From NCBI RefSeq assembly GCF_009663395.1, contig NZ_QKNW01000001.1:2108001-2172000 (forward strand): DNA of 64,000 nt, given 5' to 3'. Numbering within the stretch: position 1 is the stretch's first letter; each line of letters starts with the position of its first letter. The notes under the pieces were generated by a model. The model did not search any database. It had not been told where the DNA came from and saw only the letters and a program-made list of their open reading frames with translations. Source of the stretch: Halosegnis longus. Its GTDB lineage: Archaea; Halobacteriota; Halobacteria; Halobacteriales; Haloarculaceae. Shown piece after piece: positions 14,477 to 18,559 of the stretch. The position numbers and the translations under genes are program-made.

Positions 14477-17400
14477 ATGAGTTCTACCGGGACGACGCTC
14501 GCCGACTTCGGCGGCGGCGAGGAGGTCGAGGAAGCCCGCCACGTCACCGAGGGCGACGAGGTCGGCGAGCTGGTCGACCTCTCCGAGTACCAGTTTCCCG
14601 ACGCCGACGGCACCGTCGAGGTGAGCGTCACGCAGGTGGATTACACCGTCGAGGGGTTCGGCGACGACGAGTACCCCGTGCTCCACATCTTCGGCCGCAC
14701 CGAAGCCGACGAGGCCGAACACATCCGCGTCTTCGACTTCCAGCCGTACTTCTACACGCCCGTCGACGACCTCGACCACGAGCCTGCCGACGGGGAGCGT
14801 GCCCTCCGCGAGGCGGATTTCGAGGACGACCGCCTGATGGAGGAACGAATCGTCGGGCTCGAGACGAAGGGCCAGCGCGACCCCTCGCTCGATGACCCGA
14901 AAGCCGACGAGGTCGTCATCTACGAGTCCATCCGCGGACAGGACCTGGTGAAGGTGTTCGGCCAGACGCCCCGCGACGTGGGGCAACTCCGCGACCGGTT
15001 CGACCACTACGAGGCGGACATCCTCTTCCCGAATCGCCTGCTCATCGACAAGGACATCACCGCCGGCGTCCGCGTCCCCGACCAGCGTGCCGAGGACGGG
15101 AGCGTCAAGGTCCACCACGAGCAGATTACCCCGACGGACCTGAGCGTCGACCCGCGCGTCCACACCTTCGATATCGAGGTGGACGACCGGTCGGGGTTCC
15201 CGGAGGACGGCGAGGAGAAGATCATCTGCATGACGAGCCACGACTCCTACCGCGGTGAGTACGTCGCGTGGCTCTACGACGCCCCCGACGCGACCGTCCC
15301 CGCGCCCGAGACGATCGACTTCGACTTCTTCGACGCCGAGTCCGACACCGAACTCCGGGTGTTCGACACCGAGGAGGCGATGCACGAGGATTATCTCGAC
15401 TACCTTGCGGAGACGGACCCCGACGTGTTGACGGGGTGGAACTTCGACGACTTCGACGCCCCCTACTACGTCGCCCGACTGGAGGAACTCGGCCTGGAGT
15501 CGGACCTGCTGTCTCGCGTCGACGAGGTGTGGGACTCCGGGTGGGGTGGCCCGAACATCAAGGGGCGGGTCGTCTTCGATTTGCTGTACGCGTATGAGCG
15601 CCGCCAGTACTCCGAACTCGACTCCTACCGGCTTGACGCCGTCGCCGAACAGGAACTTGGCGTCGGGAAAGAGCGGTACACCGGCGACATCGGCGACCTC
15701 TGGGAGCAGGACCCCGCCCGCCTGCTGGAGTACAATCTCCGGGACGTGGAGCTGTGTGTCGAAATCGACGAGAAGGTCGACCTCATCTCCTTCTGGAGCG
15801 AGGTGGCGACGTTCGTCGGCTGTAAGCTGGAGGACGCGACGACGCCCGGCGACGCGGTCGACCTCTACATCCTCCACAAGGTCCACGGCGACTTCGCGCT
15901 CCCGTCGAAGGGGACCGTCGAGTCCGAGGATTACGAGGGCGGTGCGGTGTTCGACCCGATTTCGGGCATCCGTGAGAACGTCACCGTGCTGGACCTGAAG
16001 TCGCTGTATCCGATGTGCATGGTGACGACGAACGCGAGCCCCGAGACGAAGGTCGACCCCGCGGAGTACGACGGGGAGACGTACCGCGCCCCCAACGGCA
16101 CCCACTTCCGGAAGGAGCCGGACGGCATCATCCGGGAGATGGTCGACGAGCTGTTGACCGAACGCGAGAACAAGAAGGCGGCCCGCGACGAGTACGACCC
16201 CGAGGACGCCGAGTACAAGCGCTACGACTCACAGCAGGCCGCCGTGAAGGTCATCATGAACTGCTTTGCGTCGGATACGGATGTGCTCACCCCGAACGGT
16301 ATCCAGAATATTCGTAACCTCGAAATCGGTGACGAGGTATACTCTCTCGACCCGGAGACAATGGAGATGGAGGTGAAGCCTGTCGTTGCTACACAGGAGT
16401 ACCCTGACTATCGTGGAGAGATGGTCGATATCGAGACGAGTAAAATCGATTTCAGCGTCACGCCGAACCACCGAATGCTCGTCCGGAAGGACGATAAAAA
16501 CGGCGCGTCGTGGGAGGGGTTCCGCTTCGTTGAGGCTGGTGAGCTGAACGAGAGTTCACATTACGAGCTTCCCCACGATTGGACAGGCCCTGACGGAGCT
16601 CGACTTGGCACTGTTGACCTGACCGAGCGACTCGACGGCGGCTATGAGGTTTGGGCGGACAACGATGTGCACGGCCATACGCTTGCGAGCGAGCTCGATT
16701 ACTACCCAGAGAAGATACACAAAGCCGACGAGGATACCACCGGCTACGTGTTCTCGGCCGAAGCGTTCGAACGCCATCGAGAGTATCTTGACGACCACTG
16801 CTCGAACTTCTACGTCCACGCCGAGCGCGGCCGCAAGTGGGTTCCACGGTTCTACGACGGCGATGACTTCCTCGAACTGCTGGCGTGGTACATCACCGAA
16901 GGGTCGGTGTACACCTCCGAGGAGAAGCAGTTTGGTGAGCAACTTCGCGGGTCGGCGACGACAGTACAGATTGCACAGAATGCACTCCCTGACGGTGGGA
17001 TTGTGGCCGACACGGCTACTGGTGACCACGCCAAAATCGGCAGGCTACTCGATCGGATGGGGTTCGACTACTACGTTGACGGAAGCGGGTATCAGTTCAC
17101 CTCACAACTGCTTGGTCAGTGGTTCGAAACCATCGCTGGTGAGAACAGCTTCGAGAAGCGGATTCCCGACTTCGTCTTTGACCTCTGCCACGAGCAGAAG
17201 CGTGCGTTTCTCGATACGCTGATCGCGGGTGACGGAGACAGACAGCAGAACAGCTGGCGGTACACGACTTCCAGTGAGCAACTTCGCGACGATGTGCTCC
17301 GGCTCTGTGCACATCTCGGGCTAACAGCGAACTACAACTACGACAGTGGGTCGTGGCGAATCTACTGCACGGAGAACGCGAACAACAGCGTCAGGATGCA

Positions 17401-18559
17401 CCGCTCCGGCGGAACGAGTACCGCAACCGACGGTGCATACTGTGTTACGGTCAAAGACAATCACACGCTGCTTGCTGGACAAAACGGGACGTTCCAGTTC
17501 GTCGGGCAATCGCTGTACGGTGTCCTCGGCTGGGATCGATTCCGCCTGTACGACAAGGAGATGGGTGCAGCCGTCACCGCGACGGGTCGAGAGGTCATCG
17601 AGTACACCGACGAGGTCGTCCAGAATCAGGGATATGAGGTTGCCTACGGCGACACCGACTCAGTTATGCTACAGCTTGGGGAGATCTCGCCGGACGATGT
17701 CGACGGGGATGTGGCTATCACGGACGAAATGCGGGCAAAACACCCCGAAATGGACGAAGCGGAGTTGGAGACCGTTGCGGCGACGATACAGAAGGGATTC
17801 GAGCTCGAAACGGCTATCAACGAATCGTACGATGAGTTCGCCCTCGAACAGCTCAACGCGGAGTTCCACCGGTTCCAAATCGAGTTCGAGAAGCTGTACC
17901 GGCGCTTCTTCCAGGCGGGAAAGAAGAAACGCTACGCCGGCCACATCATCTGGAAGGAGGGGAAAGACGTCGACGACATCGACATCACGGGCTTCGAGTA
18001 CAAGCGGTCGGACATCGCGCCGGTGACGAAGGAGGTCCAGAAGAACGTCCTCGACATGATCGTCACCGAGGGCGACGTGGAGGGGGTCAAGGAGTACGTC
18101 CACGACACCATCGCCGAATTCCAGAAGGGTGAACGGCCACTGGACGACATCGGCATCCCGGGCGGTATCGGGAAGAAGCTCGACGCCTACGACACGGACA
18201 CCGCCCATGTGCGCGGTGCGAAGTACGCGAACCTCCTGCTTGGAACCAACTTCCAGCGCGGCTCGAAGCCGAAGCGGCTGTATCTCCAGAAGGTGCATCC
18301 CGACTTCTGGACACACGCCGAGGAGGAACTCGGACTCGACCCACAGCGGGACCCGCTGTACGGCGAATTCAAGCGCGACCCTGACGTCATCTGCTTCGAG
18401 TACGCCGACGAGGTTCCGAATTCCTTCGAGGTCGACTGGGACAAAATGTTGGAAAAGACGCTTCGCGGGCCGATTGAGCGGATTCTGGAGTCGCTCGACG
18501 TGTCGTGGGAGGAGGTCAGAGATGGCCAAGAGCAAACTGGACTCAGCAGTTTCATGTGA
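14477..18559 (+). CDS. polB: Family-B DNA polymerase with in-frame intein
   Basis: A 1360-aa precursor. The 3'-5' exonuclease domain has its ExoI Asp/Glu at residues 232/234 (TFDIEVDD). Polymerase motif A is DLKSLYP at 506. Motif B (KVIMN|SLYG) is split by a 416-residue intein at 596-1011, and motif C YGDTDS follows near 1056-1061. Without the intein the polymerase is 944 aa, the usual haloarchaeal PolB size. It is the main replicative or repair B-family polymerase. Codon use is shifted toward A/T-ending codons in the intein and in about 330 bp of downstream extein. A G-rich GGCGGAGGGG stretch precedes the ATG by about 16 nt and could act as a ribosome binding site. Confidence 0.96.
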   Translation: MSSTGTTLADFGGGEEVEEARHVTEGDEVGELVDLSEYQFPDADGTVEVSVTQVDYTVEGFGDDEYPVLHIFGRTEADEAEHIRVFDFQPYFYTPVDDLDHEPADGERALREADFEDDRLMEERIVGLETKGQRDPSLDDPKADEVVIYESIRGQDLVKVFGQTPRDVGQLRDRFDHYEADILFPNRLLIDKDITAGVRVPDQRAEDGSVKVHHEQITPTDLSVDPRVHTFDIEVDDRSGFPEDGEEKIICMTSHDSYRGEYVAWLYDAPDATVPAPETIDFDFFDAESDTELRVFDTEEAMHEDYLDYLAETDPDVLTGWNFDDFDAPYYVARLEELGLESDLLSRVDEVWDSGWGGPNIKGRVVFDLLYAYERRQYSELDSYRLDAVAEQELGVGKERYTGDIGDLWEQDPARLLEYNLRDVELCVEIDEKVDLISFWSEVATFVGCKLEDATTPGDAVDLYILHKVHGDFALPSKGTVESEDYEGGAVFDPISGIRENVTVLDLKSLYPMCMVTTNASPETKVDPAEYDGETYRAPNGTHFRKEPDGIIREMVDELLTERENKKAARDEYDPEDAEYKRYDSQQAAVKVIMNCFASDTDVLTPNGIQNIRNLEIGDEVYSLDPETMEMEVKPVVATQEYPDYRGEMVDIETSKIDFSVTPNHRMLVRKDDKNGASWEGFRFVEAGELNESSHYELPHDWTGPDGARLGTVDLTERLDGGYEVWADNDVHGHTLASELDYYPEKIHKADEDTTGYVFSAEAFERHREYLDDHCSNFYVHAERGRKWVPRFYDGDDFLELLAWYITEGSVYTSEEKQFGEQLRGSATTVQIAQNALPDGGIVADTATGDHAKIGRLLDRMGFDYYVDGSGYQFTSQLLGQWFETIAGENSFEKRIPDFVFDLCHEQKRAFLDTLIAGDGDRQQNSWRYTTSSEQLRDDVLRLCAHLGLTANYNYDSGSWRIYCTENANNSVRMHRSGGTSTATDGAYCVTVKDNHTLLAGQNGTFQFVGQSLYGVLGWDRFRLYDKEMGAAVTATGREVIEYTDEVVQNQGYEVAYGDTDSVMLQLGEISPDDVDGDVAITDEMRAKHPEMDEAELETVAATIQKGFELETAINESYDEFALEQLNAEFHRFQIEFEKLYRRFFQAGKKKRYAGHIIWKEGKDVDDIDITGFEYKRSDIAPVTKEVQKNVLDMIVTEGDVEGVKEYVHDTIAEFQKGERPLDDIGIPGGIGKKLDAYDTDTAHVRGAKYANLLLGTNFQRGSKPKRLYLQKVHPDFWTHAEEELGLDPQRDPLYGEFKRDPDVICFEYADEVPNSFEVDWDKMLEKTLRGPIERILESLDVSWEEVRDGQEQTGLSSFM
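16262..17509 (+). mobile_element. PolB intein (LAGLIDADG homing-endonuclease type) in motif B
   Basis: A 416-codon insertion exactly between Asn595 and a Ser (host motif KVIMN|SLYG). It begins CFASDTDVLTPNG (block A, Cys1). It has a block B Thr-x-x-His in SVTPNHRML, and dodecapeptides LLAWYITEGSV (Glu808) and FLDTLIAGDGD (Asp919). It ends in a block F AYCVTVKDNHTLLAG followed by FQFVGQ, then Ser as the +1 nucleophile. The terminal Gly-Gln replaces the usual His-Asn. The endonuclease acidic residues look intact. About a third of its codons end in A/T, against about 5 percent in the upstream extein, consistent with horizontal acquisition. Confidence 0.93.

Follow-up and report, generated by a model that had tools for sequence, protein, structure and literature searches.

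A foreign palm block beside the PolB motif B intein of Halosegnis longus and its probable origin by homing with co-conversion

Introduction

Co-conversion of DNA flanking a mobile element is known from crosses. The haloarchaeal PolB inteins polB-a, polB-b, polB-c and polB-d lie in the same gene as the intein described here and are patchily distributed and horizontally spread (PMC4071816). The accessible portion of that study covers intein presence and phylogeny, while the mosaic flanks are treated here; the motif B site of our locus is probably allele polB-b. Two Haloferax inteins labelled polB-c in that study cluster with polB-b. The PolB intein of Haloferax elongans (genome G361, locus L138), listed there as polB-c, sits in motif B; this position could account for the grouping and points to a possible site misassignment.

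The polB intein of Haloferax volcanii, likewise in a haloarchaeal polB, has an active endonuclease; its homing in vivo proceeds by gene conversion and depends on flank length (PMC3024317). Outside the two Haloferax species that carry the foreign block type described here, the sampled members of this genus either show no polB intein or have polB interrupted at motif C (with a His-Asn end in the two examined), so the H. volcanii intein probably does not belong to the motif B family with Gly-Gln ends. For the mcm-d inteins, and for the phage endonucleases cited with them (PMC10643990), donor flank is copied along with the mobile element, as we propose here; a single flanking residue is concerned in mcm-d, whereas the polB block comprises ~95 codons and a 27-residue insertion and recurs in eight or more genera. 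Functional inteins with a C-terminal Gln, as well as inteins lacking the penultimate His, are on record, and splicing by Gln cyclisation is established for the Gln-ended inteins of Pyrococcus abyssi PolII and CIV ribonucleotide reductase (PMC4031507). By comparison, the Gly-Gln end reported here, known from sequence, is shared by almost an entire family that occupies two PolB sites.

Results

The polB gene and its motif B intein

The analyzed stretch (hereinafter designated the window) comprises 64,000 nt of the Halosegnis longus genome. The polB precursor gene (PolB1, 1360 aa) occupies positions 14477-18559 on the + strand, which carries all window features given below, and consists of an N-extein (14477-16261), a 416-aa intein (16262-17509) and a C-extein (17510-18559). 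PolB is interrupted after Asn595, at KVIMN|SLYG in motif B (hereinafter designated site B), and the insert (aa 596-1011) starts with Cys and ends with ...FQFVGQ|SLYG. It contains a Hint splicing domain and a LAGLIDADG endonuclease domain. All splicing landmarks were found, namely Cys1, the block B TPNH (intein aa 67-70; 16460-16471), the conserved His in the block F region DNHTLLAG (17456-17479) and Ser+1 following the C-terminal Gly-Gln (17504-17509). The two LAGLIDADG-type motifs are LAWYITEG (aa 207-214; 16880-16903) and LIAGDG (aa 320-325; 17219-17236), whose patterns recur in 83 and 104 of 109 site-B inteins, respectively, and the Pfam family LAGLIDADG_3 (PF14528) matches aa 311-363 (7.8e-8). 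The intein thereby shows the Cys nucleophile with TxxH, the Ser+1 and the paired endonuclease motifs of a class 1 LAGLIDADG intein, with Gly-Gln in place of the C-terminal His-Asn. Cys1, seen directly in the window, is present in all 114 site-B sequences, in which it was fixed by the search pattern.

About one-quarter of the 392 sampled haloarchaeal genomes hold a full-length homolog with at least 62% identity and a frame without stops; the negative calls in this survey, which scored the four top candidates of each genome, are not fully reliable. The intact frames in all homologs lend indirect support to the splicing and DNA cleavage activities predicted for the window intein. A second polB-like gene of the same genome (G000, contig C3:42283-43452, L279), located outside the window on a contig of small size, has its own intein, which is 46% identical to that of the window.

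The Gly-Gln end is a family trait

An earlier, sequence-only reading of the window regarded Gly-Gln as an oddity of this intein, yet it turns out to be the rule. The 110 extracted site-B inteins end in GQ (104), SQ (1), GN (4) or SN (1), with an extraction pattern that allowed Q or N as the last residue and G or S alone before it, and all 27 site-A haloarchaeal PolB inteins, extracted with Q alone as the last residue, end in GQ. For the inteins of motif C and site Z the end is HN, as their patterns specify; other ends could escape these patterns. A degenerate or special end is ruled out by the family-wide distribution. The Gly-Gln end is an inherited trait of the family and most likely functional, given that many genomes carry these inteins within a conserved motif of the polymerase.

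An Asn end (GN or SN) occurs in five site-B inteins, namely those of Haloarcula amylolytica (G201, L125), G084 (L139), G394 (L213), G381 (L187) and SW_10_66_29 (L200). Three of the five are only 351-354 aa long, and the endonuclease domain may be getting lost.

A foreign block downstream of the intein

The first extein codons 3' of the intein (codons 0-23; 17510-17581) are nearly identical among relatives at the amino acid level. They are followed by a block (17582-17866) of a long, Haloarcula-like type (hereinafter designated the long block, as opposed to the short block of other alleles), which ends at HRFQIE. The window and its congener G003 share 93% of amino acids upstream, 93% downstream and 57% from codon 24 to HRF. 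A 27-residue insertion past motif C (DVDGDVAITDEMRAKHPEMDEAELETVAA; approximate position 17696-17782), typical of Haloarcula, is present in the window and in the most closely related genome, G002, taken as the sister species Halosegnis rubeus (F17-44), and is absent from the four other Halosegnis genomes. Many additional block residues of these two genomes are common to other genera and missing in the same four. The motif C intein site (YGD|TDS; 17653/17654) is vacant in the window and filled in congeners G003 and G005.

Phylogenetic tests locate the conflict in the block. With the insertion columns excluded, a clade of the six Halosegnis species is incompatible with the block (AU p = 2.6e-5); this value comes from a careful search with 40 rows and columns slightly different from those of a first, quick search, which returned p = 0.26 because its free tree was poor. 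The flanks, in turn, reject a clade of long-block alleles (AU p = 6.6e-51), and both the upstream and the downstream extein place the window firmly among Halosegnis, including the remainder of the C-extein (17867-18559), which is native. Transfer of the whole polB gene is ruled out by the flank identities and trees. Counted from the intein, the extein from about codon +24 to codon +118 (17582-17866) is almost certainly foreign.

The replacement is one-sided, with no foreign signal seen upstream of the intein. Its 3' edge is sharp at HRFQIE (17867), right after which silent divergence falls to the congener level, and its 5' edge lies within codons 0-24, which hold too few informative silent sites; in some genera (e.g., G007 and G084) these codons look native. 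The sequence-only reading had predicted a foreign downstream and a native upstream extein and had proposed that relatives be aligned and the change of phylogeny mapped; these results agree with the prediction, as the block does not group with the relatives of the upstream extein.

Codon usage around the intein

The same reading was built on A/T-ending codons, and its counts were reproduced: 7 of 140 codons directly upstream of the intein and 31 of 120 downstream (17510-17870) end in A or T, and 35% do so in the first bin of 40 codons that begins within the intein. Bins after 17870 hold 1-7 such codons per 40, the genome-wide codon norm being taken from neighboring genes, and the proposed boundary at ~17,870 coincides with the phylogenetic switch back at HRFQIE (17867). 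In the last bin of polB, which that reading had passed over, A/T-ending codons climb to 30%.

The interpretation of the shift as a trace of co-conversion did not survive. Pooled alleles gave a larger downstream excess of A/T-ending codons with the intein (LB+ vs SB-, p = 1e-4), but this signal vanished in the within-genus comparison, in which the 17 genera holding both intein states differ by 0.1 points in codons 0-57 (p = 1.0). Intein-free alleles also show elevated A/T-ending codon usage in codons 24-57 (23.7% vs 14.6%). Given that the intein makes no difference within genera, the codon shift alone is no evidence of foreign origin. In codons 0-8 past motif B, silent divergence is high (~50%) in most alleles, even between intein-free congeners, possibly as a result of codon choice or of escape from endonuclease cleavage.

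Recurrence of the block and its link to the intein

The same mosaic is found across haloarchaea. In eight genera (g1, g3, g20, g21, g26, g37, g40 and g65), a long-block allele is 90-97% identical to a short-block congener upstream and 90-98% downstream, compared with 58-74% in the block, and nucleotide profiles of long-block alleles repeat this pattern. (In these codes, g65 is Haloferax and g6 is Haloarcula; genome G019 is Salinibaculum litoreum.) At least 16 changes of the long state are required on a tree built from the flanks of 168 alleles. In 12 independent pairs, drawn from a set in which intein-bearing short alleles were oversampled, the site-B intein goes with the long state in 8.8 and against it in 0.1 (median p = 0.004).

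A whole-family survey of 146 genomes, in which nearly all candidates per genome were scored, gave a similar picture. Outside Haloarcula, all 15 close long-block alleles carry the site-B intein, as opposed to 10 of the 29 within that genus (Fisher p = 1.5e-5), with the long/short cut-off and the limit of at least 73% identity for the close type chosen after the data had been seen; counted by genus, and with four genera of other families added, the figure is 12 of 12 (p = 9e-5). The excess outside Haloarcula makes random import from the Haloarcula pool unlikely. Of 15 Haloferax species, exactly two have a site-B intein, and they are the same two that have a long block. The match stops at motif C in six further species, and both of those that were examined have an intein there.

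The intein also leaves a footprint at equal block type. In congener pairs that share the block type and differ in the intein, silent divergence over 57 codons downstream is 1.90 vs 1.42 times that of the flank (paired p = 0.008), while no significant effect is seen upstream (1.20 vs 1.10, p = 0.11); several tests of this footprint type were run, and the p values are without multiple-testing correction. Two marks of a co-conversion tract are thus present, a flank whose phylogeny differs from the rest of the gene and an association of block and element over independent lineages, and a third, a codon shift specific to intein-bearing alleles, is absent across the 17 genera compared. The original proposal of intein-linked downstream co-conversion is strengthened by the recurrence and the independent pairs and loses the GC3 shift, which is not intein-specific within genera.

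Origin of the block

The best account of these observations, to which we assign a probability of roughly 0.58, is intein-driven homing with downstream co-conversion. The replacement would have taken place in the common ancestor of the window species and its sister H. rubeus. The intein endonuclease would have cut an empty polB allele, which would have been repaired from a long-block donor bearing the intein, with copying running downstream through motif C and upstream copying being short or nil. The ends would have rejoined in a conserved stretch near HRFQIEFEKLYRRFF, where donor and recipient are alike, such that ~95 codons were replaced by the long, insertion-bearing form seen in sampled Haloarcula. 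Block and intein would have reached the window lineage in a single event. This account suggests that selfish elements drag parts of an essential gene between species, and in nature co-conversion appears to act repeatedly, exchanging a section of the DNA polymerase palm, including a 27-residue insertion, across genera and families. The system also makes tract length and direction testable, as Haloferax offers genetics, intein-free relatives and species with both long block and intein.

The intein phylogeny speaks against a single event. The inteins of the window genome (G000) and G002 are sister to that of the short-block congener G003 (80%), so in Halosegnis the intein may be older than the block and the two may have arrived separately. 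The block would then stem from a separate homologous exchange, unrelated to the site-B intein, that crossed over in the conserved stretch at either end of the block, in a lineage whose ancestor already held the intein. The block is bounded by conserved sequence in all genera, the codons between intein and block (0-24) are not clearly foreign, and many site-B inteins occur in short-block alleles. Moreover, across long-block alleles the congruence between intein and block distances is no higher than that with flank distances (partial Mantel, partial r 0.05, p = 0.30); for G307 with g21, intein and block are congruent. A separate exchange fails, however, to predict the presence of the intein with close long blocks outside Haloarcula (15/15 vs 10/29; pairs p = 0.004) or an intein-dependent downstream footprint at equal block type, and we consider it doubtful. 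A regional preference for certain codons past motif B, in a gene free of foreign sequence, would account for the elevated A/T-ending usage of intein-free alleles and for the missing within-genus association, but it leaves the insertion and the strong phylogenetic conflict unexplained, is refuted for the window block by the AU test and deserves next to no credence.

The position of motif C inside the block raises the question of whether the block moved or persists owing to events at that site, be it the homing or loss of inteins there or selection favoring block variants resistant to the motif C endonuclease. Among site-B-positive alleles, motif C inteins occur in 2 of 33 with a long block and in 21 of 66 with a short one, but the independent pairs (3.5 against, 0.2 with; median p = 0.25) give no significant signal and some long-block alleles (G029 and G394) do hold a motif C intein, which leaves this explanation quite unlikely. 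Functional coupling, in which a palm of the long form accommodates or requires the intein for folding or splicing and selection keeps the pair by whatever route it arose, is consistent with the block-intein association and with the raised A/T-ending usage in the surrounding codons of many alleles. We regard it as improbable, as 19 Haloarcula genomes have the long block without the intein and many short-block alleles have the intein.

Long blocks without the intein and split polB genes

Beyond the alleles that fit intein homing with co-conversion, six long-type alleles from four genera are without the intein and are 57-67% identical to the window in the block region. In all six, polB is split into two reading frames, with the break just past KKRYAG(S/L)K.W and an apparent ATG of its own for the second piece (L206, minus strand, in G088; L207 in G354; L208:3706-4575 in G368; L326 in G430; L327 in G447; L328 in G439). 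These genes look like genes broken by a homing endonuclease gene, by analogy with phage genes-in-pieces. Genus g89 (G267 and G314) has a long block of another shape (57-58%) in which neither the intein nor a NUMOD3-type element was detected, so the rule that block and element go together is not absolute.

As a lead and not as proof, homing elements at either side of the block may accompany its replacement. A tentative extension holds that two unrelated homing elements, the site-B intein on the 5' side and a NUMOD3 endonuclease gene ~30 codons past the 3' end, have each repeatedly carried the block between genera, in which case the 27-residue palm insertion could be a passenger of selfish DNA. 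An Rfam search of the split-polB loci gave no match. Four of the six loci hold a homologous ~290-aa ORF between the polB pieces, and the one examined contains NUMOD3 motifs (PF07460, 1.3e-7). A short spacer separates the pieces in G354, and the second piece of the G430 gene starts again 303 bp downstream. The G439 gene is itself a mosaic, with 91% and 89% identity to congeners outside the block and 40% inside.
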